From Neptuniibacter sp. (GTDB taxonomy: Bacteria; Pseudomonadota; Gammaproteobacteria; Pseudomonadales; Balneatricaceae), in assembly GCF_024231755.1 (NCBI RefSeq), contig NZ_JAAEQH010000214.1:1-47078 (forward strand): a stretch of 47,078 nucleotides of DNA. The letters are read 5' to 3'. Both the position numbers and the translations under genes were made by a program. The notes beneath the pieces were generated by a model. It did no database searches. It worked only from the letters and a program-made list of their open reading frames with translations, and was not told the DNA's origin. Shown here piece after piece: positions 9,145 to 42,287 of this stretch (positions are counted from its first letter, which is position 1; each line of letters starts with the position of its first letter).

Positions 9145-9174
9145 GTCTTATCTTTAAATAGTGGAGGGTGAAAT

Positions 9175-9465
9175 ATGGAATATATACTGGTGGGATTGCC
9201 AGAATATGAACTTGTGCATTTAGAGGGTTGGTTGAACAGTGTAAACAATTGCCCGTTTTTTAGGTGTTCTAATTGCCTAAAAGTTCTCCCCACGATGTCG
9301 TGGAGAGATAGCGAAATCTTGGGATGCCAAATCTGTGATGAATCTCCATGTGACGAATTTGGTTGTTCCGCGCTAGTTGACCTGGCCCTGGAATTATTAG
9401 AATATAACAACTATGAACTACGGTCAGATAATCCTAAAGATTACCCTAGACTGGAGGCAGTATGA
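9175..9465 (+). CDS. Hypothetical Cys-rich protein
   Basis: 96 residues, ATG with GGAGGG upstream. Cys pairs at CSNC (about residues 31-34) and CQIC (51-54), plus two later Cys, suggest a zinc-binding centre. Overlaps the phosphoesterase gene by 4 nt (ATGA). Confidence 0.65.
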   Translation: MEYILVGLPEYELVHLEGWLNSVNNCPFFRCSNCLKVLPTMSWRDSEILGCQICDESPCDEFGCSALVDLALELLEYNNYELRSDNPKDYPRLEAV

Positions 9466-14608: not shown

Positions 14609-14787
14609 TAGACTTCGAAGAGTTGGGGCAACAGGCATTCACTGCTGGTAAAACTAGGGAAGAGTGGATCAGGGAGCGGCTTACTGCCGTGGAGAGGACG
14701 TTCACCATACTGAGGTCGCGCCTACTTGACCTGCAATCAGACAGAGATGAGCTGAGAGCTGAGGTGGAAAGCTGGAGGACTAAATAA
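14605..14787 (+). CDS. Coiled-coil protein
   Basis: 60 residues. Residues about 20-58 form a leucine-containing heptad helix (RSRLLDLQSDRDELRAEVES). Coupled on both sides (ATGA, TAATG). It may be a small adaptor for the replication protein encoded next. Confidence 0.6.
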   Translation: MIDFEELGQQAFTAGKTREEWIRERLTAVERTFTILRSRLLDLQSDRDELRAEVESWRTK

Positions 14788-15260
14788 TGCAGTGGCCGAT
14801 ATTCAGAAGTGAGAAATCAATGGCAATACCACTAAACTCACAGGTTAAGGTAGCCAAGAAGGTTCTAGCCTACCTGAATGAGCGCAAGGGGTCAGGGTAT
14901 GAAAACTATAGCTTCATACTTGCCCGTATTAAAAGTGGTAGAACTTACGATGATTGTGTGAAGGTGATAGAGACTAAGATGCAAGATGATTTCTTTATCA
15001 AAAATCCGAGGAATCTTAACCCTGAAACCCTGTTCAGACCGGGTAATTTTGACAGATATGTGAACGAAACAACCGGTTCTTTTGGACGTGAACCGTCTAA
15101 AAAGCAGGGTAAAACTCAGAAGATATGCGACAAGTGCAGGGCACAGTTCATAAATGGCAAGTGTGAGTGTGATTTACTGTCGCCTGAAGAGTTGGCGGCG
15201 GGCAGGAAGAGACTTATTGAGATATTGGGCGGCGTTGGGAAGTCAATTGAATGGGAATAG
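14787..15260 (+). CDS. Replication-associated protein with phage conserved C-terminal domain
   Basis: 157 residues, TAATG-coupled, with GGAGG upstream. Residues about 20-95 (VAKKVLAYLNERKGSGYE ... NPETLFRPGNFDRYVNE) match the conserved C-terminal domain of phage replication-organiser proteins (Phg_2220_C type). Here it stands almost alone, without the usual N-terminal DNA-binding half, and is followed by a Cys cluster (CDKCRAQF...CEC, about 113-127). It probably helps recruit host replication machinery. Confidence 0.75.
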   Translation: MQWPIFRSEKSMAIPLNSQVKVAKKVLAYLNERKGSGYENYSFILARIKSGRTYDDCVKVIETKMQDDFFIKNPRNLNPETLFRPGNFDRYVNETTGSFGREPSKKQGKTQKICDKCRAQFINGKCECDLLSPEELAAGRKRLIEILGGVGKSIEWE

Positions 15261-28597: not shown

Positions 28598-30318
28598 TAA
28601 TCACCAACCGCTGATGCTTCAAGCGCCCAGGGAGCATATATCACGACATCTTCTGAGTCAGAGCATGTAATCTTTATCGAGTGTCTGTAACCCTCCATCA
28701 AATGGAGATGTGTGGACCTCTTCCTCTCCCTGGAGGTTGTGTTCAATGTCATGGTGGTTGAGTCCGCCGTCCCGTCAACGTAGAATGTCACCACAACGTC
28801 AGCGCCACCCGTGTCTATATCGTAATACAGGTATTCCAGATTCTTCTTCTTCAGGGCTTCCTTGAACACCCTGTCACCAGTCTGGAGTGTGGTGGAGATG
28901 GTTTCAGTGCCGGACTCGTAGTATTCGTAACCACTCTTCGTCAAGTATCTTGTACCGTTGTCTCTGTCATATTTGTGTGCGTCAGCTATGAAGTCATCGT
29001 GGAAGAACACCATCTCTGGCCATGCGTTCATGTCGAGGACCAGGCACTTATCGACTGTCGTACTGCTTGAGGCGTAGTAGAAGTAGTACCTGTCCCCATC
29101 ATACTCTGAGAAACAGACCGTCAGGTCATCGAGGTCAGTGAAGAACTCTGTGCCGAGGTACTTCTCCGTAATATTCTTATTGAACACCCCATCAAACAGG
29201 TAGATACCGTCATACCACAGGCCCAGGATGCCGTACTTGGTCTTTTCTACTGTGTACCGGTTAATAACGCCATTATCGGCGAACGTGTACTTCAACGCCC
29301 AAGTGTCAGGGTCGTTACCCTGAAGTCTCTTCCACTCCCTGGTTGTGGCGATGTAGAGTTGATCTCCCCACTCGACACATGCCACCAAGTCTTCACCATC
29401 TGTTGAGACTGTGGCGTTATTACCAGCGAGGTAACTGAAGGGGGCGTAGGTTTCCGTCCAATACAGTTTTTCCCCTTTAATACCGAATATCCTCTGGATG
29501 TAGACTGCAACGTCAACGAAGTCGCCCGGGACGGGGTAACTCTGTGAGGATGCCAGGGTGGAGGATGCCTGGAGAGTGGCGTCGGTAGTAACATCTGAGA
29601 ATGTCGTTGTCGTGTTGTCCATCAACTCTTTAACGAGGTAGTTAATCCCTGAAACAGACCGATACAACCTCCGTCTAATGTCAAGACCATCACCAGCATA
29701 CCCGCAGGTCGGAATACCAGACCACTCCACCGCATTTTCCGAAGGTTCAACAGTCCCAACGCTAGACGCGCCAGTCTCGTAGGCGTGACCGTTCGGGAAT
29801 ATGACGTAGAAAGTAACGTAGCAGTAGTACGTTCCGTCAGGCCCACCTACTTCCGCTGCTCCTACGACAACCTCTGGTGCTGCGGTTGGGTTTTCAACCC
29901 CCCACGTGTAATCCTCATCGTCAAGGAACGCCTTCTGATTGGCTCCACCATCAACTGCGAAGGTGAACCCAAGGTAGTTGGCCCATCTGGGTTTTGCGTT
30001 TCCACCCATCAGACCTACATTAGTCCATGAGGTTCCTGTCGTAAGTCTATGATATATGTAATTGAAATACGCCTGATCCCCGAGGCAGTAGGCTTTAGAG
30101 GCGGCGTAGAGGGAATCATCGTAGACCTGAAATCCGTGGACGGTGCTGTCAGAATCCGTGTCGATGGAGTAGAGTTGGTTCCTCGATGGCCTTGCGGAGA
30201 GTTGTCCAGCAGTCCTGAAATCCCACCCCGAACATGATATCAACTCATCTTCTCCAAGGAACAGTGGACCCTTCTTGAGATTAATCCCCTTATCGAACGT
30301 TATTGGTTCTCTGCTCAT
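28597..30318 (-). CDS. Tail nozzle / tubular protein B-like
   Basis: 573 residues in the usual nozzle position, directly after the adaptor. Repeating beta-blade-like segments (YDDSLYAAS, WGDQLYIATTREWKRLQG, YGILGLWYDGIYLFDG, EYDGDRYYFYYAS) match the propeller of T7 gp12-type nozzle proteins. Forms the hexameric tip of short tails. Confidence 0.65.
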   Translation of the reverse strand: MSREPITFDKGINLKKGPLFLGEDELISCSGWDFRTAGQLSARPSRNQLYSIDTDSDSTVHGFQVYDDSLYAASKAYCLGDQAYFNYIYHRLTTGTSWTNVGLMGGNAKPRWANYLGFTFAVDGGANQKAFLDDEDYTWGVENPTAAPEVVVGAAEVGGPDGTYYCYVTFYVIFPNGHAYETGASSVGTVEPSENAVEWSGIPTCGYAGDGLDIRRRLYRSVSGINYLVKELMDNTTTTFSDVTTDATLQASSTLASSQSYPVPGDFVDVAVYIQRIFGIKGEKLYWTETYAPFSYLAGNNATVSTDGEDLVACVEWGDQLYIATTREWKRLQGNDPDTWALKYTFADNGVINRYTVEKTKYGILGLWYDGIYLFDGVFNKNITEKYLGTEFFTDLDDLTVCFSEYDGDRYYFYYASSSTTVDKCLVLDMNAWPEMVFFHDDFIADAHKYDRDNGTRYLTKSGYEYYESGTETISTTLQTGDRVFKEALKKKNLEYLYYDIDTGGADVVVTFYVDGTADSTTMTLNTTSRERKRSTHLHLMEGYRHSIKITCSDSEDVVIYAPWALEASAVGD

Positions 30319-31262
30319 GGGAGGCTCTTCTGGTGTGGCATGTTAGTCATCCAGTTCCAGACCGCAGCCCTCCTCATTGGCCTTTGACCATCAAAGTTTT
30401 TCTTCCTCTTCCTCTTGTACGTTTCAATCTCTCCGAGGAATCTCTTGTGATATCCCGGTGCCCTCTTATACTCAGCGGAGTCCTCCGGGTTACTCGCCAA
30501 CAGGTCAGCGGTGGCATAGTACACTAGCGCTTTCTGGTATTCTCTTGGTATTTCAGGGTATTGAGCGCCAGTTACCCCCAACCCTTCGGTCGGCACAATC
30601 AATTCTTCGGGGAACCTGTAGTACTCTAGGAAAACGTTGCCATCCATTTCTTCGGCTTGAGCCACGACGCCGGTATCGACATTCATCACAAACTCATCCG
30701 TATCAGTCATGCGGATTATGACACCATACTCGCTTGCGAACGTGAACGTGGGACACACCCACTGGACCACCTGCCCATATTCTGAGTCAAATGATATCTC
30801 ACCACCGTCAGTATCAGGTATTGGAGTTAGACCGAACATACCGATATTGCCATACGTCCTGTCAACGTACAACTGCTTCGGGTTCCCGGTCGCAGTTCTC
30901 CAATCCCCATACTGATAGTTTAACTCATTGTGGGTTGTGATAACCAACTGCTCGTAGCCGTAGGTGTAGGAGGATTTGAAGAAGTACGCTGCCTCAAGGT
31001 CGAGGAAATTCCAGGGGAGTCTGTACGTCCGATAGTTCGCCTTCATCTCGACTATAGCATATGTAGCCAGGCAGAGAGTTTCACGAACGAAGTCTTCCTG
31101 TCCCCTGTTCAGGGCGTCGTCCACCCAATCGTAATCTGCCGCCCCCCCGGTCGGGGAGTACCGGACAGTATTAGTGGCACGTAGGTTTTTCAAGACAAGT
31201 GCCCTCAACTCAGTCAGGGTATATCCACTGAATTGCCCTGTCTGCTGTGTGACAATTGCCAT
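30315..31262 (-). CDS. Head-tail adaptor protein
   Basis: 315 residues, 4-nt overlap with the nozzle gene. N-terminal helical bundle (LTELRALVLKNLRA ... DWVDDALNRGQEDFVRET) followed by beta strands and a C-terminal helical, basic tail. This is the shape and gene order of T7 gp11-like/podovirus adaptors that dock on the portal. Confidence 0.6.
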   Translation of the reverse strand: MAIVTQQTGQFSGYTLTELRALVLKNLRATNTVRYSPTGGAADYDWVDDALNRGQEDFVRETLCLATYAIVEMKANYRTYRLPWNFLDLEAAYFFKSSYTYGYEQLVITTHNELNYQYGDWRTATGNPKQLYVDRTYGNIGMFGLTPIPDTDGGEISFDSEYGQVVQWVCPTFTFASEYGVIIRMTDTDEFVMNVDTGVVAQAEEMDGNVFLEYYRFPEELIVPTEGLGVTGAQYPEIPREYQKALVYYATADLLASNPEDSAEYKRAPGYHKRFLGEIETYKRKRKKNFDGQRPMRRAAVWNWMTNMPHQKSLP

Positions 31263-31265
31263 GGC

Positions 31266-31604
31266 TTACCTCACATAGACTTTTATGGAATTTGCTACTA
31301 AGTTGGTCGAGTTCATAATTGACAGACCGTGCCGAGTTTTTATGGCATGACCACCCGGGGCAGTCCACGTCAAGGTTCCATCCACACCACCCACGCCATT
31401 TATGTCTATAACCGCACCCTGCAAGTCATAGGTGCCATCATATATTTTTCCAACTTTGGAATTGGTTGGGATGGTGTTATCATCTATGAGTGTCAATCTT
31501 GAGTCTGCCGCATCGTTATCAACCGTTGCAGATACTGCTACAATCTCATGTTTACCTGCCCTTAATGGATTAGGTATATTCCCGTAACACTGGAGGGGGT
31601 ACAT
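31266..31604 (-). CDS. Small beta-rich virion protein
   Basis: 112 residues with Gly/Thr-rich strands (DGTYDLQGAVIDINGVGG). Between the sugar island and the adaptor. Possibly a capsid or connector accessory protein, or another glycosylation acceptor; no family is recognised. Confidence 0.5.
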   Translation of the reverse strand: MYPLQCYGNIPNPLRAGKHEIVAVSATVDNDAADSRLTLIDDNTIPTNSKVGKIYDGTYDLQGAVIDINGVGGVDGTLTWTAPGGHAIKTRHGLSIMNSTNLVANSIKVYVR

Positions 31605-31612
31605 ATTCTACC

Positions 31613-32431
31613 TCATGTTCTAAGTTTTTCGATTATTGGGAGTTCGGAATCGTACACGACCTTCCGGCCATCTCCCATCATTTTCTCAATTAGTTCAATC
31701 CTTCTCATTAATTCAAACACACCAGCGGGTTCGATGCTTGCGGCTTGATCGCTACCGTACATCGTCCGGTCAAGTGTCACGTGCATCTCAATCATCTCAG
31801 CACCGTAGGCGACTGCGAGGCACATAGCCATGAGTCCCGGGTAGTGATTCGAAAAGCCAATCTTCGAAGCGTACTTCAGGTTCCTCATATACCCCACGTT
31901 AATCTCTTCCGGCACTGTCGGATAGGTGGAGGTACAGTGCATCGTGCAGTATTCGAACGGGTGGAGCAAGTCCTGCGCTGCCGAAATCTCATCCTCAGTT
32001 GACATACCGGTTGAGAGTATGGTTGGAATCTCATTCGCCACACACGCCTTCAGTATGTCAGTGTCGGTTATCAGAGCAGACGGCACCTTCATCATCGGCA
32101 CACCTAAGTCCATTAGAAAGTGGAAACTGTCCACATCCCAAGGACTTGCGAACCATTTGATCTTGCCGGTGCAGTATTCGTTTATGGCGACGTAGTCTTG
32201 GAAATTAAATTCAAGACCCTCTTTCTGTTCCCTGTTCGTCGTGCCCCACGGAGATTGTCTTGGAGCGTCAAGTTCCTCCTTGGAGTACACCTTGTCAACC
32301 GTACGTTTCTGGAATTTTACGTAATCACAACCCGCCGCATACGCCACATCAATGAGTTTTTTGGCTATCCCCAAATCTCCGTTATGATTGATGTGTCAAA
32401 TACCTATCTCGGCAATTACTTCGATAGGCAT
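31613..32431 (-). pseudogene. neuB: NeuB-like nonulosonic acid synthase, split by in-frame TGA
   Basis: NeuB enzymes condense phosphoenolpyruvate with an amino-sugar to make sialic, legionaminic or pseudaminic acid. The frame starts at ATG 32431 (MPIEVIAEIGI), hits TGA at 32396-32398, then continues with HIN-HNGDLGIAKKL. Removing the 9 bases 32390-32398 restores the canonical AEIGINHNGD motif. Downstream, KFQKRTVDKVY, WFASPWDVDS, KVPSALITDTD, ILSTGMST, HCTSTYP and LDRTMYGSDQAAS are intact. About 272 residues in all, lacking the C-terminal SAF (antifreeze-like) domain. A TTG at 32374 could restart translation but would omit the motif. The HNH gene overlaps the start by 16 nt. Confidence 0.8.
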
Positions 32432-32901
32432 ATAGCATCACCCCCTTCCATTTTTCCGGTAAATCTACCGGATTTGTCCCTAACCATATTCGCTACGGAC
32501 TGTTTGTGGTGAAAACTTAAATGTTCTGACTTTTGCATGAGCATCAAGTTTTCCAGTTTGTCATCATCTATGACACCGTTCACATGATGAACAACCTCAT
32601 CTTCAGTCAAATACCGCCCCAAAGACTCTTCCATGACCAATCTGGACCTCAAAACATATCCCCTGCCTTGGGCATTTCTGGCTGGATGGTCAGGACTATA
32701 AACTAAAATATAGCCGTTTGAGTTTTTAATTTCGCCACCCTTCCAACCACGTTTGTTGCCATATTGCTGATGTCCCTTAATATATTTTGGAAATTGTCCT
32801 AAATGCGACGGGAAATAATGGCGTTTTCTCAGGACCAGTAGCCCACCACATCCACAACCACAACCTGCGTAACCAACAATATCATTATCTGCTTTCCCCA
32901 T
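32416..32901 (-). CDS. HNH homing endonuclease
   Basis: 161 residues from ATG 32901 (AGGAGGGG upstream). An N-terminal Cys cluster (CGCGCGG) is followed by an HNH_3-type nuclease: SRLVMEESLGRYLTEDEVVHHVNG ... DKLENLMLMQKSEHLSFHH, with the His-His, Asn and His residues. Such free-standing nucleases spread into sites near their target. It ends inside the start of the broken neuB, suggesting it invaded the island next to that gene. Confidence 0.85.
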   Translation of the reverse strand: MGKADNDIVGYAGCGCGCGGLLVLRKRHYFPSHLGQFPKYIKGHQQYGNKRGWKGGEIKNSNGYILVYSPDHPARNAQGRGYVLRSRLVMEESLGRYLTEDEVVHHVNGVIDDDKLENLMLMQKSEHLSFHHKQSVANMVRDKSGRFTGKMEGGDAICLSK

Positions 32902-33097
32902 TTTTCCCCTCCTGACATCTTGGACACGTTGGTCTTCCGTTAACAGACTTCCAACCGTCTTCAAGTGGTTGACCAATCTTATGTTCCAGAATATTCACAT
33001 ACGCATTTGTCGTTTCTTTCTTCCCATCACCGGCGAAGAACCTTTGGGTACAAAGTGGCCCATTGCATCGTAACGTGACGTAAAGACGATTATCCAT
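32885..33097 (-). CDS. Small zinc-binding protein
   Basis: 70 residues, TGATG-coupled to the methyltransferase gene, with AAGGAGGGG upstream. LRCNGPLC and CPRC form a likely zinc site. No family is recognised. Confidence 0.6.
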   Translation of the reverse strand: MDNRLYVTLRCNGPLCTQRFFAGDGKKETTNAYVNILEHKIGQPLEDGWKSVNGRPTCPRCQEGKNGESR

Positions 33098-33759
33098 CAC
33101 CCCTCCTTCCTGCAAATACCATACATGAATGTCGTTTCATCCCCTCGATGATTCACGTCCTTCACCTTCAATATCTGATAACCATTGAACCAGAAACCCA
33201 AGAGTTGTCTGAACCTACTCTCAGTGAGTTCAAATAGATGGTACTCATTAGTATCGCTCGGTCCGCCTGACTCTGTCAATGGTGTGCTGATAACCAGAGT
33301 ACCACCGTCCTTGAGGGCAGTGAGGAATTCTGTTATTAGCTTAAACTGTTGGGCACCTGCGATATGTTCCAGACCCTCGATACATGCAATAACATCGTAC
33401 TGCTGATCCCCAAGGTAGGCATCCTCAAGGTCTGCGACACTAAACATCCTGTCCAACGGGTCGTGGTTATTTCTGCGACAGTATTCAATTGTTACGGGGT
33501 CAATGTCCATCCCACGATACTTGACACCGAACGGTTTGAAAATGTCTGCGGCGTAACCCGACCCACACGGGAAGTCCAACACCTTCATCCCGGGTCGCAT
33601 GAACATGGCTGGAAGATGGTATCTCGCACGATGTCGCGCTATCAGATCCGCCATTTCCGGCATGTTAGTCCTACTTATCTGGACATCCTCTCCACTGAAT
33701 GTGAAGTTCATGTCATTCAGGTACAACCTCTCCTCGTTCGCTCCCCCTCTCCAGATCAT
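33097..33759 (-). CDS. SAM-dependent class I methyltransferase
   Basis: 220 residues, ATG with GGAGG upstream. Rossmann motif I VLDFPCGSGYAADIF (about residues 60-74), acidic motif II YRGMDIDP, motif III YDVIACIEGLEHI and GGTLVISTP. The small-molecule-methyltransferase type seen in sugar and antibiotic pathways. In this island it may methylate a sugar or an attached glycan; the substrate is unknown. Confidence 0.8.
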   Translation of the reverse strand: MIWRGGANEERLYLNDMNFTFSGEDVQISRTNMPEMADLIARHRARYHLPAMFMRPGMKVLDFPCGSGYAADIFKPFGVKYRGMDIDPVTIEYCRRNNHDPLDRMFSVADLEDAYLGDQQYDVIACIEGLEHIAGAQQFKLITEFLTALKDGGTLVISTPLTESGGPSDTNEYHLFELTESRFRQLLGFWFNGYQILKVKDVNHRGDETTFMYGICRKEG

Positions 33760-34315
33760 AACCTAACCTCCTAAGTGCGCTTTCAAGTCTCCCCTGTATT
33801 TCCTCATCCGTCCGTCTTTCGGACATTTCCATAAATACAACTTTACGCCCCTTGAGCAATACCTCTGGACCCTGATTATTTATGTAATATACTCCCTCTG
33901 CGGCTACAGTATCCGGCAGACCACATTTTTCGACCAGGCTTTTGATCGTTTGTTTCTTGCTTCTTGAACATCTCACCCAAATAGGATCTGGATAGAAGCA
34001 TATAAGTGCCCCTAGTATGTGCGGTAGCGAGTTGTTAGGTTGTTTGAAACCCCACGGCGCACCCTCTTCTAGTCGCTTTCTAGTATAATCTGATAGGGCG
34101 TTGTGCCAACCAGTATATACCAACTCCCCATATGTGAACTGTTGATGTATGTCTGAAATAACCTTCTCTTCGTAGTGCCCGTCTGGAGTAATGGGATCGT
34201 ATGGTTTAAAATCATTTCCCATACAAATACCCATCCTCTCATGTAGAACCCTAGCGACAGCACTCGTCCCAGAACGAGGACATCCGAGAACTATGACTGG
34301 ATTCGGATACTTCAT
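33713..34315 (-). CDS. Sulfotransferase family protein 1
   Basis: 200 residues from ATG 34315 (ATGA overlap with the preceding paralogue). N-terminal P-loop VIVLGCPRSGTSAVA, the PAPS 5'-phosphosulfate loop of sulfotransferases; IWVRCSRSKKQTIKS supplies the 3'-phosphate-binding R/S pattern. Closely related in layout to the next gene, so a tandem duplication. The acceptor is unknown; island context suggests a sugar. A P-loop kinase role is the alternative. Confidence 0.7.
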   Translation of the reverse strand: MKYPNPVIVLGCPRSGTSAVARVLHERMGICMGNDFKPYDPITPDGHYEEKVISDIHQQFTYGELVYTGWHNALSDYTRKRLEEGAPWGFKQPNNSLPHILGALICFYPDPIWVRCSRSKKQTIKSLVEKCGLPDTVAAEGVYYINNQGPEVLLKGRKVVFMEMSERRTDEEIQGRLESALRRLGYDLERGSERGEVVPE

Positions 34316-34884
34316 CCCACATCCCACGCCACTACACTATCCCCACCAGCCTTAATCCTTTCCTCTATCTCTGTGTCCGTCGCTCTTTCAGACATATCCA
34401 TAAAAATAGTCATATTGTTTGGCAGAATTTTATCCATCGAAGTATTCCTGAAGTGGTACATGCTTTCACCTTGGGACTTTTTCGTGCCGAAAGCAGCAGT
34501 ACAACTTTTCACCGTCTGTTCTCGCGTCCTATGGCAACGCACAAAAACTGGAGCAGCGAAGTAGGTAACAAGAGGACCAAGGACTATCGGATGGGCAAAT
34601 TTGGGATCTTTCAACCCCCACGGAGACTTCAATTCGTACATCCTTTTGGTATAGGCGACAAGCCCCTCGCCCCAATACGTATGGTTACAGTGTGCCTCAA
34701 TTAGTAGTGAATTAATCCGGTGTATCTCTTCTGACTCGTAGCTGCCGTCAGGCGTAATGTCTATGGATTTCTTGAGGTCGAACCCCATGAATATCCCCAT
34801 ATTCTCATGCAACACCCTCGCTACAGCACTTGTACCGGATCGTGGCGGACCCAGAACTATTACAGGTTCCTGATATTCACCCAC
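34312..34884 (-). CDS. Sulfotransferase family protein 2
   Basis: 190 residues from GTG 34884, which overlaps the radical SAM stop and lines up with the start of its paralogue; ATG 34929 would add 15 residues. VIVLGPPRSGTSAVARVLHE is the PAPS loop and VFVRCHRTREQTVKSC the second site. It shares the order ITPDG(S/H)YE, (A/S)PWG and MSER(A/R)TD with sulfotransferase 1. Confidence 0.7.
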   Translation of the reverse strand: MGEYQEPVIVLGPPRSGTSAVARVLHENMGIFMGFDLKKSIDITPDGSYESEEIHRINSLLIEAHCNHTYWGEGLVAYTKRMYELKSPWGLKDPKFAHPIVLGPLVTYFAAPVFVRCHRTREQTVKSCTAAFGTKKSQGESMYHFRNTSMDKILPNNMTIFMDMSERATDTEIEERIKAGGDSVVAWDVG

Positions 34885-35674
34885 GCGGTATTCCCCAATA
34901 GTCACACCCGGAACACAGCGGAACCTCATCCCGCCTGCCCTGGATGTGTCTCTCAATTATTTCCCTGCGCTTCACAGACTTCCAGATAGAAGCCAGCGAT
35001 TTACTCTTGATATTCCCCAATCGTCCTTCGCCTTCAGGGTCAAAGCGAACGCAATGGGCAACATTACCCCATCTGTCAATCGCAAGATGACTAAGCAGGT
35101 CAAGGCAGATACCGTGTTCTGGGATCGTAACAGTCTTTTCATAATTGCGACTTCCCATCGGATCGTGAAGAATACGCCTCGCAACAGTGCCCTCCAGTTC
35201 CTCCCATCTATCAGACCGTTCAACCCCGCCAAGTAGTCGATAAACCATGTAAGGTCGCCGAGATTTTTTTCTCTTAACAAAACTTTTGACGATATCATAT
35301 TGCTCGTCCCCCTCTGGATCGTTAGGAATTACTGACACCGTTAGAGTGTCGAGGTTGCCGATGATTTCGTCTGCCTTCTCAAGCAGGAGTTTCCCGTTCG
35401 TGTTCAGGCACCTGATATTCTGGTTGAAATAGGCTAACGCAGTCCCGAGGTTGGGGTACATCAGGGGTTCGCCGTTGTTGTGAAACTGGATCAGAATCCC
35501 TGACGGTATCTGGCTGGTAATCTTCCTGACCAGTTTCAGGGGCATATTGCCAAAATCCCTCGCCAGTTTGGGATGGTCACGCTCTAACTTTCTGCGACCA
35601 CACATCCAGCAGGACTTATTACACTTTGACGTTAGTTCAATATTAACTGTGGTTAGACCGTTCATTGAACTCAT
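34877..35674 (-). CDS. Radical SAM protein with SPASM-like C-terminus
   Basis: 265 residues from ATG 35674 (GAGGGGG upstream). VNIELTSKCNKSCWMCG carries the CxxxCxxC cluster (Cys18, 22, 25) that binds the [4Fe-4S] and SAM; NNGEP is the GGE-like motif. A C-terminal region with HGICLD, NVAHCVRF and LCSGC suggests auxiliary cluster ligands (SPASM/twitch). Such enzymes modify peptides or sugars by radical chemistry. The substrate here is unknown. Confidence 0.85.
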   Translation of the reverse strand: MSSMNGLTTVNIELTSKCNKSCWMCGRRKLERDHPKLARDFGNMPLKLVRKITSQIPSGILIQFHNNGEPLMYPNLGTALAYFNQNIRCLNTNGKLLLEKADEIIGNLDTLTVSVIPNDPEGDEQYDIVKSFVKRKKSRRPYMVYRLLGGVERSDRWEELEGTVARRILHDPMGSRNYEKTVTIPEHGICLDLLSHLAIDRWGNVAHCVRFDPEGEGRLGNIKSKSLASIWKSVKRREIIERHIQGRRDEVPLCSGCDYWGIPRG

Positions 35675-36599
35675 AAGGCGACACCCCCTCTTTGGCACCC
35701 TCGTCCCACGCTTGGATTTGGGCTTTGATGTCTATGCCGTTACAGAAAACATCTACCAATTTACGGAACCAACACCCAGGATCTCCATCTCCTATCTCTA
35801 CGCCGTTATATTTTGTTACTGGCAATATGCAAAATGGCGTTCCTGTAAAGAAAGATTCATCGGCATTGTAAACGTCGTACGGCTCAATATTTGTTTCTTC
35901 AACGGGGTACAACTCAAATATACGATCTCTACTAATCCCCCTTAAAATATTTCTCGGTTCTGGTGTTTTTATAACACTATCTTTTACAATAAAGAAATTA
36001 GCCCCAGTCCCCTCAGTGACAAACCCATCCTCATCAAGCAGCAGCGCCCAATTATTGTCCCCCCGATATCTGGACACCTCAATATTAGCCATCTGATAAT
36101 GAAGACGACTCCGGTTCTTAACCTTCGGGTCAAGGAGGTGAGCGGGTATGGCTCTTTGGGAGGGGGTCACGGCGTTAATGCCCGTGTCAAAGAGTTTGCC
36201 CATACCCGCTGTGGTCCACCTCAAGGGGAAGTCGCTGATAATCACGTTGGTCCCAACATGACCCCCAGAAACATCCCCATATATACCCAATAACCCCCTC
36301 GTAACATTAATCATCAAACGGTGTTCGTCATCGGGTTCAAACTGGTTTGCTGCCTGTACTTCATCACATGCCCGGGTCAACTCGTCAATCCCCATTGACA
36401 TCGGGATGTGAACATACCGAGCTGATCTAAGTAGTCTTTCAAGGTGTTCGCGTAATTTAAACTGGACACCATTGAAGGATCTTGACATTTCAAAAATTGT
36501 GTCGCCAAACTGAAATGCACTATCGTATATTGAAATACGAGCTTCTGACTCGGGAAGGATTTCCCCGTTAATCCAAACCTTCCTTGAAGAGTGCTTCAT
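35643..36599 (-). CDS. Class IV PLP aminotransferase (IlvE/D-amino-acid type)
   Basis: 318 residues, ATG with GGGGGAAT upstream. SAFQFGDTIFEM, a Lys near position 161 in DPKVKNRSRLHY (Schiff-base lysine), WALLLDEDGFVTEGTGANFF and a C-terminal SFFTGTPFCILPV match branched-chain/D-amino-acid aminotransferases. Full length for the family. In the island it might make or use an amino acid linked to the glycan; no direct evidence. Confidence 0.85.
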   Translation of the reverse strand: MKHSSRKVWINGEILPESEARISIYDSAFQFGDTIFEMSRSFNGVQFKLREHLERLLRSARYVHIPMSMGIDELTRACDEVQAANQFEPDDEHRLMINVTRGLLGIYGDVSGGHVGTNVIISDFPLRWTTAGMGKLFDTGINAVTPSQRAIPAHLLDPKVKNRSRLHYQMANIEVSRYRGDNNWALLLDEDGFVTEGTGANFFIVKDSVIKTPEPRNILRGISRDRIFELYPVEETNIEPYDVYNADESFFTGTPFCILPVTKYNGVEIGDGDPGCWFRKLVDVFCNGIDIKAQIQAWDEGAKEGVSPYEFNERSNHS

Positions 36600-37296
36600 T
36601 TAATAATTCCCCCGCTAAATTATATAAAGCAATATCTGGTTCTAGTTGATCTCTAATTATCTCTAAATCTTCCTTGCTTACATCGACCTTATACTTTTTA
36701 GGTGTAACGCCAACGGTGTCAAGATCACCACCAATTCCGTACCGATGTTGGAACAGTTTCAACGTATCTTCCGGTCTTTCAAGGATGCCGACAGAATCGT
36801 AGTTCTGGCAAATATTGTGGCACGCACTGAAAAACATATCCCTTAAATCATATACCAACTTCCCCTCTTCATCCACCATCTCTAAACTAGAACAGATATA
36901 TCCGGTTTGTGCATTTACCCAGAAAAGGATGTTTGGGTCTTCATTATCAATAAATTCCATGAGAGAGGGTTTTTCCTCCCGCATCTTTGCGGCGACCTCC
37001 ATGTTGGAGGGCATATTTATGAAGTGATTATATTGAGAAATAGTCCTAGCCACAGGTTCTCTTAATATCGTTACATATTTGAAACTTCTTGGCAGGGGGA
37101 TTTGATCGTAACCAAAGTGGCCGATAAAAAGATTGTAGTACCCAAAAACTGTGTCATGTGGCATGTTTGTTTGCCAAGCGTTGGCACTGTTCATTATTTT
37201 ATAACGCTGGAACTTTTCCCTAAAAAGTTTTTTCCAGCTTCTCCCACCCGTCTTCGGAATGTGAGTGAAGGCTACTTTAAGTTCATTTGTAACCAT
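36568..37296 (-). CDS. Sulfotransferase 3 (HS2ST/family 2-like)
   Basis: 242 residues from ATG 37296 (GAGGGGG 5 nt upstream); ATG 37314 also possible. The start VAFTHIPKTGGRSWKKLF is the PAPS loop of the membrane-type carbohydrate sulfotransferase family, and YVTILREPVARTISQYNHF is the matching 3'-phosphate site. This family sulfates glycans. A different lineage from sulfotransferases 1 and 2. Confidence 0.8.
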   Translation of the reverse strand: MVTNELKVAFTHIPKTGGRSWKKLFREKFQRYKIMNSANAWQTNMPHDTVFGYYNLFIGHFGYDQIPLPRSFKYVTILREPVARTISQYNHFINMPSNMEVAAKMREEKPSLMEFIDNEDPNILFWVNAQTGYICSSLEMVDEEGKLVYDLRDMFFSACHNICQNYDSVGILERPEDTLKLFQHRYGIGGDLDTVGVTPKKYKVDVSKEDLEIIRDQLEPDIALYNLAGELLNEALFKEGLD

Positions 37297-37306
37297 CTGG
37301 TCCCCC

Positions 37307-37504
37307 TCACTCATCTTCCCTCTCTGGCTTTATCCCCAATGCCCCCCAATCCATTGAGGTACATCTCAGATAAACCTTCGTTCCTGCGGAACCCAACAGA
37401 TTAATTGCCGCCATAAATTCCAGATCAATTTCTGGCAAGCTGCAATAATTCTTCTCTATGTGCCTGCATGTCGTAGCGCAACACTTTACTTTCGTCCCCG
37501 TCAT
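37307..37504 (-). CDS. Small Cys-rich protein
   Basis: 65 residues. CCATTCRHIEKNYCSLPEIDL resembles the short C-rich phage proteins of the DUF1540 kind. It overlaps the end of the DUF115 gene by 80 nt in another frame, so confidence is moderate. Confidence 0.5.
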   Translation of the reverse strand: MTGTKVKCCATTCRHIEKNYCSLPEIDLEFMAAINLLGSAGTKVYLRCTSMDWGALGIKPEREDE

Positions 37505-38444
37505 ATCTTTTCACCACCCTCAACTCGTCTATAGTTTCCCCCGCCTTCATCCTATCAAAAATCTTGTCGATAAGTGTTATAGAATCCTTAATCGGGCGGA
37601 CATTAATTGCACTCCCACTCTTGCCAAGTAACCCCACCGATGAATCAATGAAAAATCCAGGCGGTGTCAGGTCAGAACAAACTTTTTCTATCCACATGGA
37701 ATACATAAACAGCGCCGGTAGGGTCCACTTCTCCTCCCCCGCAACATCAACAACGGGGAATAGGTTCTTCAGTTTCTCCTGTTTCGCGGACTCCTTATCC
37801 GCGTAATAGTCTTTCACTCCCGATAGACAGAGTTCGTTCCCGACAAAGACGCAAATTTTCACACCAAGCACCAATGTAACAACGAAAAGCGCAGACGAAA
37901 TCGAATTGCCACCGCTTCCCAACTGTCTGCCAAGTTTTCCCCTCACTTTTTTTCTCAACTCCTTGCCGATGCTGTAGTACGGGAGAAACCAAACATCACC
38001 CTGCCACTTCTTAACCGTGTCGTGATCTATAACTGAACTGGCAAAAAGCGTAATCCCCCTACTATCACAGTCAAGATGCTGTGGTATGTCTACGTCGTCG
38101 CTATCGCAAGAAATGACGTAGTGTGGCTTGACACCATGTTTTAATAAATACTTCAGTGAGCTGTTCGAACATAGAATCCGAAAGTTGTCACTGATACCCT
38201 TCAGGGCGTGGACATCCCGTTCCAGGGAGGGAGAAGACCCGACAAGAATAAAGGCTTTTGGATTGCCCTTGTCGTGCTTGTCCTGCAAGCGCCATATGCT
38301 GTTTTCCTTTTTCAACAGGGGAAGATTTTTTATGGTGTTCGCTTCCCACTGTTTCCGCATAATCTTGTAGCCTTCGTTGCCCTCAAACCCTTTATTGAAG
38401 TTCTTTATTATCTTTCTGTGCTGATTAACGTTGTAAATACTCAT
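37425..38444 (-). CDS. MptE/Maf-like (DUF115) glycosyltransferase-type protein 2
   Basis: 339 residues from ATG 38444 (GGAGAGGG upstream; overlaps the neuA end by 20 nt). KAFILVGSSPSLERDVHAL, SNSSLKYLLKHGVKPHYVIS and CDSDD are the core of the MptE-like domain, also the catalytic domain of flagellin Maf proteins that transfer pseudaminic or legionaminic acid to Ser/Thr. Coupling to neuA makes a nonulosonate-transfer role likely. Partner paralogue at 40056-41069. Confidence 0.75.
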   Translation of the reverse strand: MSIYNVNQHRKIIKNFNKGFEGNEGYKIMRKQWEANTIKNLPLLKKENSIWRLQDKHDKGNPKAFILVGSSPSLERDVHALKGISDNFRILCSNSSLKYLLKHGVKPHYVISCDSDDVDIPQHLDCDSRGITLFASSVIDHDTVKKWQGDVWFLPYYSIGKELRKKVRGKLGRQLGSGGNSISSALFVVTLVLGVKICVFVGNELCLSGVKDYYADKESAKQEKLKNLFPVVDVAGEEKWTLPALFMYSMWIEKVCSDLTPPGFFIDSSVGLLGKSGSAINVRPIKDSITLIDKIFDRMKAGETIDELRVVKRYDGDESKVLRYDMQAHREELLQLARN

Positions 38445-39102
38445 AAGCCCTCTCCGCCATGTACCAATCAAAAGGAGTATCTATCTCAAAACTTCGTTCC
38501 CTACTCATTTCATAGAGCTTTGCCTTTTCAGGGTTGCCAATGAAATTACCGTAAGCTATCAGCACGTCCAACATACACCAATAAATGGAACCGTTCTCCA
38601 TGAAGAAATCATCTCGGGTCTGTCTGTTCGGTCTTTGAGCCACATTGTAAGTACAGGCTGGACCCTGGTTGGAGGGTTTCCCAATCCATCCCATCCAGTC
38701 GTGCCATTGTACACTGACGACGGTTTGGTATTTCTTCATCTTAATGTACTTAGAAGATTTCGCTATATCATCTGCTGTTCTCAGCGGTGACGTTGGGTTC
38801 AGTAGACAGAGGTACTTGTGTAGATAGGTCTGCCTCGCGAAGTAATCATACAAGACTTCCGAAACCTGCACGTCATCTCCACCCAGTTCGTCCAATCTCC
38901 TGTGACTATCGACTTCGCACTCCCCTGCGATCTCCAGAATGTCTTCATCATCCGTTGAAACAAGAATTTTATCAAACACACCTGAATCTTTCGCTTGGTC
39001 GATTGTGTGCTGGATGAGAGGTTTACCGTGAAAGATTTTTTTATTCTTCCCCGGCAACCCCTTGCTCCCTTTCCTAGCTGGAATAAAAGCTATCGCATCC
39101 AT
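38425..39102 (-). CDS. neuA: CMP-nonulosonate cytidylyltransferase (NeuA-like)
   Basis: 225 residues, ATG with GAGGAGGGG upstream. AFIPARKGSKGLPGKN is the CTP-binding signature; ILVSTDDEDI, LLNPTSPLR and FEIDTPFDW complete the family motifs. It activates a nonulosonic acid (sialic, legionaminic or pseudaminic type) with CTP. Full length. Coupled to an MptE/Maf-like gene downstream and following two capsid-adjacent proteins. Confidence 0.88.
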   Translation of the reverse strand: MDAIAFIPARKGSKGLPGKNKKIFHGKPLIQHTIDQAKDSGVFDKILVSTDDEDILEIAGECEVDSHRRLDELGGDDVQVSEVLYDYFARQTYLHKYLCLLNPTSPLRTADDIAKSSKYIKMKKYQTVVSVQWHDWMGWIGKPSNQGPACTYNVAQRPNRQTRDDFFMENGSIYWCMLDVLIAYGNFIGNPEKAKLYEMSRERSFEIDTPFDWYMAERAYEYLQR

Positions 39103-39124
39103 ATCCCCTCCTCAGTCAAAATGT

Positions 39125-39583
39125 TTACGCCTCCCTATACCTCACCATAAGATCGTAGTTGCCAAGGTGCGCCGCAGTAATTGTGTTATGCCCCATATCC
39201 AACACGGCGTCAGAGGTGAAGGTTGTATTTGTCGTTGCCATCTGCATGTAGCACAGAGGGTGCTGGACATCATCTGTTACGCTAACGGTCAATAGTGCGA
39301 ACCGAGATGGTGTAGCCGAGGCAACAGTTCTCATCCCCACACGTATTTTTTGGGCTGCACCATTAATGGCACCTGTAGCATTTATATTTCTCTTTAGGAA
39401 ACAGTCTGTCACGACAACTGTTCTGCCAAAGGTCCATCCATTCGAACCTGAACCAGCAGACAGAGAAGTTTCCAGCATATTCATGGAAACTGCAATGCCC
39501 GTGTGGAGGTCAATATTGCGGAACGTTACTTCATGAAAGACCCCCGTGTCAAACAGGGGGCAAAGTTCGCTGAAATCTGACAT
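39125..39583 (-). CDS. Capsid-adjacent protein B (possible decoration protein)
   Basis: 152 residues, paralogous to the adjacent gene over its full length (MSDFSE, TGVFHEV, FGRTVVVTD, DVQHPLCY, NYDLMVRYREA shared). Beta-rich and Ser/Thr-rich, with TTNTTFTSDAV. Position between the capsid and sugar genes suggests a head decoration protein and a candidate glycan acceptor. Confidence 0.55.
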   Translation of the reverse strand: MSDFSELCPLFDTGVFHEVTFRNIDLHTGIAVSMNMLETSLSAGSGSNGWTFGRTVVVTDCFLKRNINATGAINGAAQKIRVGMRTVASATPSRFALLTVSVTDDVQHPLCYMQMATTNTTFTSDAVLDMGHNTITAAHLGNYDLMVRYREA

Positions 39584-39584
39584 T

Positions 39585-40046
39585 TTATGCCTCCCTGTAT
39601 CTCACCATCAAATCATAATTCCCCGTGAAGGTCGTAGTCTCTGTAGCATGATTGAAATCTAGCACAGCGTCAGAGGTGAAAGTGGTTGAGGTTGATACTG
39701 TCATAGCATTGTAACACAGGGGATGTTGAACATCCACCGTCACACTAATTGTTATCAACGCAAAGTTTGTTGGTGTCGCTCCAGCGGTGCTTCTATGTCG
39801 CAACCTCATAATCATTTCTGGGTCGTTGGTCGGCGCTGTCGCGTTTACATACCTCTTTAGAAAAGCGTCAGTTACAACAACAGTCCTGCCGAATGAAAAA
39901 CCGTTCGCGGCAGTACCAGCAGTCAGAGAACTTTCCAACAGATTTGACGTGAAAGAAGTCCCCGTAGTTCTGCATATATTGTAGAAAGACACTTCATGGA
40001 ATACCCCTGTTTCAAAGATGGGGCAAATTTCTGAAAAATCACTCAT
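39585..40046 (-). CDS. Capsid-adjacent protein A (possible decoration protein)
   Basis: 153 residues, tandem paralogue of 39125-39583, one base from it. Many Thr/Ser runs (TSFTSNLLESSLTAG, TVSTSTTFTSDAV). Directly downstream of the first MptE/Maf-like gene. Same proposed role; no family is recognised. Confidence 0.55.
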   Translation of the reverse strand: MSDFSEICPIFETGVFHEVSFYNICRTTGTSFTSNLLESSLTAGTAANGFSFGRTVVVTDAFLKRYVNATAPTNDPEMIMRLRHRSTAGATPTNFALITISVTVDVQHPLCYNAMTVSTSTTFTSDAVLDFNHATETTTFTGNYDLMVRYREA

Positions 40047-40055
40047 TGTTAACTC

Positions 40056-41069
40056 CTAATCGTAGACTATATCTCCTAGCCTAGCTGTCCTATTTGGATG
40101 CACCACATCAATACTCCGAGTTTCACTTAGGAAAGGTTGCCCTGCTCTCATAATCTGCTTCGCCTGGGCGACCCCGTTCTTCAATGTCAACTGCCAGATG
40201 TTGGGTTCGTTGCCACTCTTACTGACCCCGAATATTCCCGCCTCCGTACAATTAAAAAACCACGCCGCCTCTGCCATCTGCCCGATAAACCACTCAGACA
40301 CGATCTTCAGCGTAAACAGCATTCGACTTGTGTAGACGACCCCGCCGTAGATGTCCACAGCGGGTTCGCGCTTGTACTCGTCCTTCTCGTCTGTACGATC
40401 AACGTAGTACGTTGTTTTTTTATCCTTATAGCTAAGTTCGTTTCCGACAAAAATAATGACCCCGCATCCAAATATTAGTATGGCAATTGCTATGCCTATA
40501 TTATACTGACTGCTCAAGGCCGGGAACAATTTCCCAATGCCGTTCACGGGCCTGTACCATTTCTGGAGTCTTGTCATCCACGGCTCGATGTCGCTGGCGA
40601 GGGCTAACCACCTTAATGGTCCCTGCCATATCTCCAACATCTGGGGGTAAGCAAAAACGTTCGCTATAAGGGTTATATCCTTAGTTAATGCCATATCCAA
40701 ACCATCAAAAAAGTCCCCCTGAGAATGGTGTGGATCGACGGTTATCACGTAGTCAGGTTTGATGCCACTGTCGAGCAGGTACTTCACGTTGCAAGAGATT
40801 GCGAATAGTACGAAATCCTTGTCGTGCTGTAACTCTCTCAACTCATCGAGTTGGTTGGCGAGGGCGGGGCTTGCACCTATCATCACGCAGGTTTTGCCCT
40901 TGTGGGCATCCTCCAGTTCTGCCGCCCACCGCTTCCCAGACTCCCTGAATAGTTTTCGGTTTATTCGGGTATTTTCTTCCCACAGAGCGCTGCCATGCTC
41001 ACCAGTCGCTTCAGCGGCCAACTTCGCATAACCCATCCAACCTTCATGTCGCTCTGCGTATTCAACCAT
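40056..41069 (-). CDS. MptE/Maf-like (DUF115) glycosyltransferase-type protein 1
   Basis: 337 residues. TCVMIGASPALANQLDEL, SCNVKYLLDSGIKPDYVI and TVDPHHS match the same MptE-like core as 37425-38444, and the C-termini also align (VVHPNRTARLGDIVYD). Lies immediately after the major capsid gene (3-nt gap). Two copies suggest two acceptors, or linkage and extension steps. Confidence 0.72.
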   Translation of the reverse strand: MVEYAERHEGWMGYAKLAAEATGEHGSALWEENTRINRKLFRESGKRWAAELEDAHKGKTCVMIGASPALANQLDELRELQHDKDFVLFAISCNVKYLLDSGIKPDYVITVDPHHSQGDFFDGLDMALTKDITLIANVFAYPQMLEIWQGPLRWLALASDIEPWMTRLQKWYRPVNGIGKLFPALSSQYNIGIAIAILIFGCGVIIFVGNELSYKDKKTTYYVDRTDEKDEYKREPAVDIYGGVVYTSRMLFTLKIVSEWFIGQMAEAAWFFNCTEAGIFGVSKSGNEPNIWQLTLKNGVAQAKQIMRAGQPFLSETRSIDVVHPNRTARLGDIVYD

Positions 41070-41072: not shown

Positions 41073-42287
41073 CTACCCGACATCGACGAGCAGGCCATGA
41101 GCAGCGTCAGCGTTCCTGATTTCCAGGGTGTACTGACCTGAAATCTGCCATTTCTCATGCCTACCGGTTTTTGCCATTTTCTCCAAGTGCCACGAATCCC
41201 CGGCCAACGGCCTGAGTGCTACCCTGGACCTGTCCATAATCATCAACATACCGGCAGGGAACCACCTGTCAAGGACGACGGGCATTTCAACACCCATGTC
41301 AGTTATGAGAACATCTTTGTAATAACCAACCTTCCTCTCTCCCGGTTCCGCCCTTCGGATACCATTCTCCATCGCAGCGATAACTCTCTGCTGTTTTGGT
41401 CCGACAACAATGATGGGGTCTGCCGAATCGTCAAGACCACCCGCATCATAAATCTTGTAGGCGAGGTCATTGATGTCACTCAAAACAAGGGCGTTGCCAC
41501 TCCTTGCCGTGACCATCGTGTCCTCACGGGTGGCATCGTAATCAGGATCTCGCAACCTGTTAATTATACCAGTCATCGTCATCAACTCTGACGCGGCATC
41601 AGTGTAAATCACACCCGTCTGGGATATGCCCTGCGTGACAGAGAGCGCAAGTTCGCGCTTGATCTCCATCGTCCTCCGTTTAATCTGCAACTGGAGTTCA
41701 CTGACGACCGCCTCCATGTCCATCCCCTTACGAGTCTGGGTAATGGAAACCGCCCTCTCGAAGACCTGCATAAGATTGCTTCGCTTAGTCCTCGCTACAG
41801 ACGCATCGGAACTCGCGTCGTCATCATCGCTGTATGGCGATGCCACAACGTGCCATGTAGTAGTTAGCCCAGCCGTTACCCAAGTTGTCGAACCATAGGC
41901 TCCAGCAAGTTTCACACCAGCGGTCCCGAGAACACTCGTAACCTGTACGAGATAGTCAGTTCCACCACGCGGATCGACAGGTGCCAAGATCGAACCGTCA
42001 CGGATCATAGCCTTACCTGATGCCTGACTGGAAAAACTTGTGATAAACGTCAGGGTGGTACTCACTTCAGACGAGTAGGCTTCAAAAGAAGCCGGGTTAA
42101 GACCATCTTCGATCCAATCGCACATAATATTATGTGCAGGCGGTCCCATTTTAATATGTCCAAGAATCTCCCTGTCTCCCTTTAAGACAGCGGCCAACAC
42201 CTGGGAACAGTCTACCTTGTCTAACTTTGATGCCAGAGTCGCGGTCCACGCCGAATCCGTCATAAAGCCTGTACTCAAAATACTCAT
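41073..42287 (-). CDS. Major capsid protein (SU10-like, DUF5309)
   Basis: 404 residues. CDWIEDGLNPASFEAY near residue 60, a helical central region (AVVSELQLQIKRRTMEIKRELALS) and a C-terminal LIMDRSRVALRPLAGDSWHLEKMAKTG ... LEIRNADAAHG block match the SU10/DUF5309 HK97-fold major head protein. Follows the scaffold gene. Builds the icosahedral shell. Confidence 0.85.
   Translation of the reverse strand: MSILSTGFMTDSAWTATLASKLDKVDCSQVLAAVLKGDREILGHIKMGPPAHNIMCDWIEDGLNPASFEAYSSEVSTTLTFITSFSSQASGKAMIRDGSILAPVDPRGGTDYLVQVTSVLGTAGVKLAGAYGSTTWVTAGLTTTWHVVASPYSDDDDASSDASVARTKRSNLMQVFERAVSITQTRKGMDMEAVVSELQLQIKRRTMEIKRELALSVTQGISQTGVIYTDAASELMTMTGIINRLRDPDYDATREDTMVTARSGNALVLSDINDLAYKIYDAGGLDDSADPIIVVGPKQQRVIAAMENGIRRAEPGERKVGYYKDVLITDMGVEMPVVLDRWFPAGMLMIMDRSRVALRPLAGDSWHLEKMAKTGRHEKWQISGQYTLEIRNADAAHGLLVDVG

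Follow-up and report, generated by a model that had tools for sequence, protein, structure and literature searches.

Why does a phage carry genes for the synthesis, activation and transfer of a nonulosonic acid among its head genes, and what would the sugar be attached to? The question arises from the window analyzed here, the whole of a 47,078-base contig (C214) from a Neptuniibacter sp. metagenome-assembled genome (MAG; 4.49 Mb in 384 contigs, contamination 5.86%). The same 141-bp stretch is found at both ends of the window, as would be the case for a complete phage genome. On the minus strand, the head genes follow the order of terminase, portal/connector, a putative scaffold assigned by position, SU10-type major capsid protein (MCP), the island in question, a gene of 112 amino acids, SU10-type adaptor and an internal-virion-type protein (Table 1). 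The original prediction had placed such an island on a single strand between the major capsid gene and the adaptor, and the matches to the SU10_MCP and SU10_adaptor profiles verify both its coordinates and its strand. NeuB and NeuA make and activate sialic-, legionaminic- or pseudaminic-type acids, and Maf proteins attach these acids to serine or threonine. The enzyme activities discussed below are inferred from these established functions of the three families.

The island is rather likely to be a phage-encoded O-glycosylation system whose genes stand with those of the head and are presumably expressed together with them. Activation and transfer of a nonulosonate is the part of this proposal that is held with high confidence. 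The virion is the somewhat favored acceptor, with the capsid probably being the site of attachment. In the proposed mechanism, NeuB would combine a hexosamine-derived sugar, supplied from outside the island and probably by the host, with phosphoenolpyruvate to form a nonulosonic acid, and NeuA would convert this acid to its cytidine monophosphate (CMP) form. The MptE proteins would then transfer the sugar to serine or threonine residues of virion proteins, with the small P152 proteins and/or the capsid protein as the likeliest targets. The methyltransferase, the aminotransferase/radical SAM (S-adenosylmethionine) pair and the sulfotransferases may act as lineage-variable tailoring enzymes that decorate the sugar. 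Between the two options suggested originally, glycosylation of the phage's own particle or re-coating of a host surface protein, the first is favored because NeuA, NeuB and Maf-like proteins co-occur in or near the head genes of related phages, while the second appears less likely.

Gene order in related phages

IMG/VR was scanned with MCP, MptE, NeuA, P152 and portal queries, and six relatives (L001, L002, L003, L004, L007 and L008) could be read beyond the MCP gene; L009-L011 end inside MCP and L001 ends inside MptE. MptE directly follows MCP in the window and in all six relatives (7/7 loci), with gaps of -35 to 11 bases. P152 comes directly after MptE in 6/6 readable loci (gaps of 0 to 12 bases), and NeuA comes after P152 in five of six loci (after the second of the two P152 genes in the case of the window); in L008 a possible open reading frame (ORF) of 69 amino acids intervenes. 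NeuB is present in all three relatives' contigs of at least 44 kb and in none of the six fragments of at most 18.4 kb. The MCP sequences of the six relatives are 40-56% identical to that of the window, which indicates that the arrangement is old. Co-retention in related phages, which the original prediction had named as a check, is thus observed from MCP through MptE and P152 and, in most loci, on to NeuA.

Three longer relatives show how the remainder of the island varies. In G001 (47,569 bases with a 144-base terminal repeat), the order is MCP, MptE1, P152, NeuA, an MptE2 with an extension like that of G002 below, NeuB, a 93-amino-acid gene, a homologue of the 112-amino-acid gene, and adaptor. 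G002 (locus L007) begins with MCP, MptE1, P152, NeuA and an MptE2 fused to a methyltransferase domain (assigned by eye and from a weak tblastn match), followed by a radical SAM protein (26% identity), a methyltransferase-like gene, NeuB, the 112-amino-acid homologue and adaptor. G004 (44,863 bases with a 114-base terminal repeat) is the most distant relative. Beside its MCP gene are an MptE fused to a methyltransferase domain, two P152-like genes and a gene marginally similar to the adaptor. The portal match of G004 runs across the ends of the contig. Upstream of portal lie the genes for NeuA, an Epimerase_2 (NeuC-like) protein, a hexapeptide protein, a DegT aminotransferase, a Polysacc_synt_2 (PseB-like) dehydratase, a protein of 244 amino acids that matches no Pfam family, NeuB and an N-acetyl sugar amidotransferase. 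NeuA, Epimerase_2, the hexapeptide protein, DegT, Polysacc_synt_2 and NeuB pass the Pfam cut-offs, and among NCBIfam models the amidotransferase (WbuX) alone passes. All six legionaminic/pseudaminic-type steps are thus covered in G004 by candidates with Pfam support, and the transferase stays with the capsid gene. A 466-amino-acid gene before NeuA in G004 resembles a terminase by eye, but it is unlike the large terminase subunit (TerL) of the window and has no PDB match, so a terminase identity is not claimed. A near-complete legionaminic/pseudaminic-type set with an amidotransferase was noted upstream of the portal gene at 1261-7659 of L095 (IMGVR_UViG_3300033145_000591), a 45-kb phage contig.

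The position of MptE bears on an alternative in which the island genes remodel the host surface, either flagellin or a surface polysaccharide, so as to exclude superinfecting phages or change adsorption, much as capsule sugars are altered by some prophages. Contig C106 of the MAG carries a locus for flagellin glycosylation, in which PseB and PseC pass their cut-offs and are accompanied by a NeuB-like synthase, a Maf-like protein of 685 amino acids, FliD and flagellin. If the MAG is the host, it would thus offer a suitable acceptor and could also provide the precursor sugar. Prophage genes modifying capsule pseudaminic acid are known (PMC12053666). However, MptE stays beside MCP in 7/7 loci and with P152 in 6/6, and in G004 it is kept there despite the location of NeuA and NeuB elsewhere. 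Genes of the head block are also expected to be late, and recoating of the host would then be of little use. Host remodeling is considered unlikely on balance.

Searches for relatives without the island returned little. The portal profile covered 14 loci with no counter-example, a result of little power, and seven new contigs from the portal scan (L103-L105, L107, L110-L112) stop no more than 1.2 kb from the portal match. The MCP profile gave 26 pattern matches and zero relatives among genome contigs. For the outgroups H1, H3 and H4 (26-30% identity over 59% of MCP), only hypothetical, head, tail and HNH annotations follow MCP in the stretches shown, and the 112-amino-acid gene has no detectable homology to the small genes of these three. 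L193 (MW202462, positions 1-978), a distant outgroup phage, has annotated mannosyltransferase and methyltransferase genes upstream of its terminase gene.

NeuA and NeuB

NeuA scores 75.6 bits against PF02348 (cut-off 22.6) and carries IPARKGSKGLPGKN; we take PARxxSKxxPxKN to be the motif of CMP-nonulosonate synthetases. A profile built from three phage NeuA sequences retrieves NeuA chains in the PDB with a best E-value of 6.5e-40. NeuB scores 207 bits against PF03102 (cut-off 22.1). Its frame starts with an ATG at 32431 that is preceded by GGAAGGGGGTGA, a purine-rich ribosome-binding site, and reads MPIEVIAEIGI before it meets TGA as the 12th codon. The TGA is flanked by the conserved AEIG and NHNG, and past it the frame runs for 253 codons without a further stop and contains VKFQ, SNH and EMH. 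The description of NeuB as broken therefore holds as far as the in-frame TGA is concerned, but this is a single stop in a frame that otherwise remains open with its conserved motifs. Uninterrupted NeuB is found in L007 (59% identity to the window's) and L091 (53%).

Several explanations of the TGA were examined. Reassignment of TGA in the phage genome is ruled out, as TGA terminates 9 of 33 genes examined. Location of the HNH gene inside NeuB is likewise ruled out, with the HNH gene ending 16 bases into the NeuB start, and no Rfam match up to E 1 was found in the window that would indicate a group I intron or other RNA splitting NeuB. The free-standing HNH gene at the NeuB border has no tblastn match beside NeuB in L007 or L091. 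The TGA could be an assembly error or a recent lesion, and it is conceivable that it is passed by recoding.

The in-frame TGA raises the alternative that the system is decaying in the window phage, with NeuB dead and the other genes being remnants or using host-made nonulosonate. It agrees with the ordinary use of TGA as a stop in this phage, and with the presence of the interruption next to an HNH gene for which L007 and L091 show no match at the corresponding site. However, the other 12 island genes are open, NeuB retains its long open frame and motifs, the base composition of the island is like the rest, and the TGA itself could be erroneous or recoded. Decay is judged somewhat unlikely.

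The type of sugar falls below the NCBIfam equivalog cut-offs. NeuB reaches 190 of 400 bits for NeuB_NnaB and 124 of 340 for PseI, being nearer to the former, and NeuA fits best with PseF (109 of 206 bits). Among 50,697 GenBank phage records, tblastn finds NeuB in three and NeuA in four, with a record named after the bacterium Moritella viscosa in both sets, and finds no match to MptE1, MptE2, the radical SAM protein or the Maf-like protein of the MAG. NeuA, NeuB, MptE1, MptE2, ST3a, ST3b, the aminotransferase and P152a/b remain without a PHROG match at E 0.01. Annotation based on PHROG would thus miss the system.

MptE as a putative Maf-like transferase

MptE1 and MptE2 score 76.0 and 87.8 bits against PF01973 (cut-off 34.6), and FlagModPseD is the sole NCBIfam model matched by either, far under its cut-off (E 7.6e-14 for MptE1). 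An AlphaFold model of MptE1, computed from an alignment of 10 sequences, has a mean predicted local distance difference test score (pLDDT) of 83. Its best PDB match is the Magnetospirillum Maf glycosyltransferase 5mu5 (E 5e-10, template modeling (TM) score by query of 0.53), followed by the pterin enzyme MptE of M. jannaschii (E 4e-4, TM by query 0.39) and by human sialyltransferases from 1.2e-3. Structure prediction of the NeuA and MptE-like active sites had been suggested earlier, and by predicted fold MptE1 is nearest to Maf. MptE1 is regarded as a putative CMP-nonulosonate transferase and MptE2 as a second Maf-like protein. If this is correct, they would represent a non-flagellar branch of the Maf-type transferases with a small and possibly simple acceptor.

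The family name of PF01973 suggests an alternative role of the MptE-like and aminotransferase genes in pterin/folate metabolism, with the remaining genes as unrelated passengers. The family is named after the pterin enzyme, M. jannaschii MptE ranks first by sequence profile and second by fold, and the class IV aminotransferase models of NCBIfam include aminodeoxychorismate lyase. However, by fold the E-value for Maf 5mu5 is lower than that for the pterin enzyme by some six orders of magnitude, MptE-like genes adjoin NeuA in other viruses, and the aminotransferase is nearest to branched-chain enzymes. Furthermore, G001 and G002 contain MptE, NeuA and NeuB with no tblastn match to the aminotransferase in the parts examined. 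This alternative is highly improbable.

NeuA and MptE-like genes in other viruses

A single-sequence NeuA query of viral contigs gave four pattern matches and zero relatives. With a NeuA alignment as query, 60 NeuA loci were obtained, 57 of them outside the phage family, and a PF01973 scan covered 44 of these contigs. PF01973 matches are present in 12 of the 44, three of them above cut-off. In 11 of the 12 contigs, the match shares the strand of NeuA, lies immediately upstream and ends 195-219 bases before the NeuA match; the twelfth is 4.7 kb off. Within a chosen set of 10 upstream proteins, nine match PF01973 at E 0.01 and three pass the cut-off, and hhalign of 11 upstream proteins against the island MptE profile gives a Prob of 93 (E 3e-7). 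SU10 MCP above the cut-off is absent from all 45 NeuA contigs tested (one weak match was seen), so that the MptE-NeuA pair exists outside the phage lineage. MptE-like and NeuA have the look of a transferase-synthetase pair for CMP-nonulosonates that is widespread among viruses.

Short MptE-like genes of 205-289 amino acids are located directly upstream of NeuA in L039, L041, L042, L046, L049, L066, L067, L068, L070, L071 and L074, on contigs of 12 to 380 kb.

P152 as a candidate acceptor

The P152 model, computed from eight sequences (pLDDT 75), is all beta except for short helices. Its first-ranked PDB match is 7eel_H, a capsid chain of cyanophage Pam1 (E 2.8e-3, TM 0.46/0.49), and a capsid chain of phage GP4 is found at rank 13 (TM 0.52/0.52), with many TNF- and C1q-type folds alongside. 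In the viral library there are 20 matches at E 0.001, which are mostly nameless, the others being C1q, capsid, virion structural and minor tail proteins. The Ser+Thr fraction of P152a (0.255) is the highest of the 33 minus-strand proteins examined and that of P152b (0.197) is the fifth, with values of 0.21-0.24 for P152 in five relatives. The model, helped by the position of the genes, allows a guess that P152 is a capsid decoration protein. That P152 is an acceptor is a possibility that we hold tentatively.

The acceptor could instead be a tail or fiber protein, with the glycan tuning adsorption. The P152 model also matches a minor tail protein (rank 18) and a tail fiber protein (rank 48) in the viral library and the tail fiber chain 9rkv_N at rank 36 in the PDB. 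In addition, g18270, which has a PHROG tail-fiber match, and its unassigned neighbor g20214 are Ser/Thr-rich (0.204 and 0.214). However, MptE1 and P152 adjoin MCP rather than tail genes in 6/6 loci, and attachment to a tail or fiber protein is quite unlikely in our estimate.

Tailoring enzymes

We take the 5'-phosphosulfate loop motif to be the mark of sulfotransferases using 3'-phosphoadenosine 5'-phosphosulfate (PAPS), and the PKTGGRS and PRSGTS segments are read on that basis. A loop-like motif is present in all three candidates. ST2 scores 39 bits against PF03567 (cut-off 22) and matches phrog_3347, galactose-3-O-sulfotransferase, with E 2.9e-7; it has no PDB match below E 0.1. ST3a and ST3b are 43% identical to each other and share the PRSGT loop. 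The assignment of three PAPS-type sulfotransferases is best backed for ST2, the only one to pass its Pfam cut-off, and is weaker for ST3a and ST3b, which stay below theirs although both bear PRSGTS. Sulfation of the sugar is somewhat doubtful.

The radical SAM label is supported in part. The SPASM domain scores 35 bits, above its cut-off, and CxxxCxxC together with four SPASM-side cysteines is invariant across five aligned proteins, but the Radical_SAM domain has 20.8 bits against a cut-off of 29.5. The protein is 52-56% identical to proteins of the NeuA-bearing viral contigs L032, L034 and L056, with an adjoining aminotransferase match in one of them, which ties the radical SAM/aminotransferase pair to nonulosonate genes. 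The aminotransferase scores 154 bits against PF01063, and its nearest PDB chains are branched-chain aminotransferases (E 3.4e-46).

Weighing the proposal

A number of observations weigh against glycosylation of the virion by the island enzymes and are considered together here. Only six relatives are readable past MCP. The NeuB of the window is interrupted by a stop, and Pfam and NCBIfam searches of the island genes gave no dehydratase, PseC/LegC-type aminotransferase, N-acyltransferase or UDP-hydrolase, so that only the synthase and the cytidylyltransferase are covered of the six legionaminic/pseudaminic pathway steps. The hexosamine precursor would therefore come from elsewhere, probably from the host, and the notion of a dedicated phage pathway of unusual breadth was overstated for the window phage, with its incomplete pathway and interrupted NeuB. 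A PDB sequence-profile search ranks the pterin enzyme MptE (8e-6) above Maf 5mu5 (0.002); MptE1 and MptE2 reach 51 and 36 bits of the FlagModPseD cut-off of 670, and they are short (337 and 348 amino acids) compared to full Maf and to the 685 residues of the MAG's own Maf-like protein. A profile of the island MptE proteins matches none of 1,314 ORFs from 56 other NeuA loci at E 1, so the link to those loci rests on Pfam matches, mostly sub-cut-off, and on hhalign. The P152 matches are weak, with none in the PDB at E 0.001 or better, and C1q and minor tail names stand beside capsid among its viral-library matches. The window sulfotransferases match L003 by tblastn and match nothing in the examined parts of G001, G002 and G004. 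In reading MptE as Maf-like, we have weighed the fold and the gene company above the sequence profile.

A broader model may be put forward tentatively. Unrelated phages may share a Maf/sialyltransferase-fold enzyme and a CMP-nonulosonate synthetase, place a sialic-acid-like coat on the decoration protein of the capsid, and vary the tailoring by lineage through swappable methyl, amidino, sulfate and radical SAM functions, similar to the variation of flagellin glycans among bacteria. Phage capsids are usually regarded as bare protein. Glycosylation of the virion, if true, would alter expectations of how stable phages are, how they adsorb to surfaces and how antibodies or bacterial defences recognize them. 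Mass shifts on P152 or MCP are the corresponding prediction.

Comparison with known glycosylation systems

We have compared the island to bacterial O-glycosylation of flagellin with pseudaminic or legionaminic acid by Maf/PseD. In both cases, a nonulosonate synthase, a CMP-nonulosonate synthetase and a PF01973 transferase are encoded together beside the gene for a surface protein that is abundant and symmetric. In contrast to the bacterial system, the window genes lie in a phage head block, the transferases are about half the size of the MAG Maf, the candidate acceptor is capsid-associated, and the transferases of several relatives are fused to a methyltransferase. The family functions of NeuB, NeuA and Maf are partly supported by PMC11339370, in which the central domain of Maf is reported as Cst-II-like. 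The MptE1 model weakly matches human sialyltransferases.

Virion glycosylation is known in mycobacteriophages (PMC11256854, PMC12619734). Glycans are reported on capsid proteins of Che8 and Rita, with phage glycosyltransferases thought to be responsible (cited in PMC11256854). Unlike the island, those glycosyltransferases are encoded near the 3' end of the genome, and the excerpt names no nonulosonate or Maf gene. Phage genes acting on nonulosonic acids are represented by the prophage genes epaA/epaB (PMC12053666) and by phage-encoded O-acetyltransferases (PMC6586298), both directed at Acinetobacter capsule nonulosonates. Here it is a host polysaccharide that is modified, and the accessible parts of both sources describe no protein transferase or head location. 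The neuA gene has been reported as a marine viral auxiliary gene (PMC10653327). Among the open-licence literature matches listed, there is no report of Maf-type or NeuB/NeuA-based virion glycosylation in phages. Phage virion glycosylation, phage action on nonulosonates and viral neuA are known, and none of the same listed matches reports a Maf/nonulosonate system among phage head genes.

Layout of the island and other features of the window

The island consists of 13 minus-strand genes, transcribed in the order of MptE1, P152a, P152b, NeuA, MptE2, ST2, class IV aminotransferase, radical SAM/SPASM, ST3a, ST3b, methyltransferase, HNH and NeuB (Table 1). Between MCP and the 112-amino-acid gene, 12 of 14 junctions overlap or have a gap of at most 41 bases, the other two being 110 and 120 bases by the listed ORF starts. 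The mean GC content at third codon positions is 0.50 for the 13 island genes and 0.48 for 20 other genes examined, so the island does not have the look of a fresh import. Profile searches, another suggested check, did not scatter the island genes into unrelated families. The labels of NeuA-like, NeuB-like, two MptE/Maf-like, aminotransferase and methyltransferase proteins in the original prediction are each backed by matches above the Pfam cut-offs; P152a, P152b and the HNH gene were absent from its list. Homologues of the 112-amino-acid gene occupy the matching place in L007 (38% identity, tblastn) and L091 (30%, E 3e-10 in a single comparison).

Table 1. Features of the window from the major capsid gene to the adaptor gene
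Feature	Position	Strand	Evidence
Major capsid protein (left anchor)	41073..42287	-	PF17236 SU10_MCP E 1.3e-48; phrog_1328 major head protein
MptE1, Maf-like putative CMP-nonulosonate transferase	40056..41069	-	PF01973 E 3.9e-21
P152a, small Ser/Thr-rich beta protein, candidate decoration protein/acceptor	39585..40046	-	63% identity to P152b
P152b, P152a paralogue	39125..39583	-	
NeuA, CMP-nonulosonate synthetase	38425..39102	-	PF02348 (CTP_transf_3) E 6.2e-21
MptE2, second Maf-like protein	37425..38471	-	PF01973 E 9.3e-25
ST2, sulfotransferase (Sulfotransfer_2), PKTGGRS	36568..37314	-	PF03567 E 1.3e-9
Class IV aminotransferase	35643..36599	-	PF01063 (Aminotran_4) E 8.6e-45
Radical SAM/SPASM protein	34877..35698	-	PF13186 E 2e-8
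ST3a, putative sulfotransferase, PRSGTS	34312..34956	-	PF13469 20.1 bits, under cut-off 27
ST3b, putative sulfotransferase, PRSGTS	33713..34327	-	PF13469 23.0 bits, under cut-off 27
SAM-dependent methyltransferase	33097..33759	-	PF13489 E 4.7e-16
HNH endonuclease gene, overlaps NeuB start	32416..32976	-	PF13392 E 1.5e-7
NeuB, nonulosonate synthase, in-frame TGA 32398-32396; listed open frame 31613-32374	31613..32431	-	PF03102 E 3.4e-61
112-amino-acid gene between island and adaptor	31266..31604	-	Homologues at same place in L007, L091
SU10-type adaptor (right anchor)	30315..31262	-	PF24175 E 1.7e-10

In addition to the 13 genes, a possible small Cys-rich ORF (32885-33115, 76 amino acids as listed) is located between the methyltransferase and HNH genes and overlaps the HNH frame. 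Elsewhere on the minus strand, a small terminase subunit-like protein (phrog_57) is encoded at 827-1414, and the frame at 3-605, at the start of the window, resembles by eye the front part of the large terminase, with the contig break between it and the frame at the window's end. The plus-strand arm encodes a RuvC-like resolvase (10960-11508), a weakly Rad52-like protein (12561-13280) and a replication-initiation-like protein (14787-15260). In the relative L004, three consecutive look-alikes of similar size (8123-9480), with LPYP/LPFP starts and GVGFxP noted by eye, follow the adaptor-like gene and are perhaps paralogous structural proteins.

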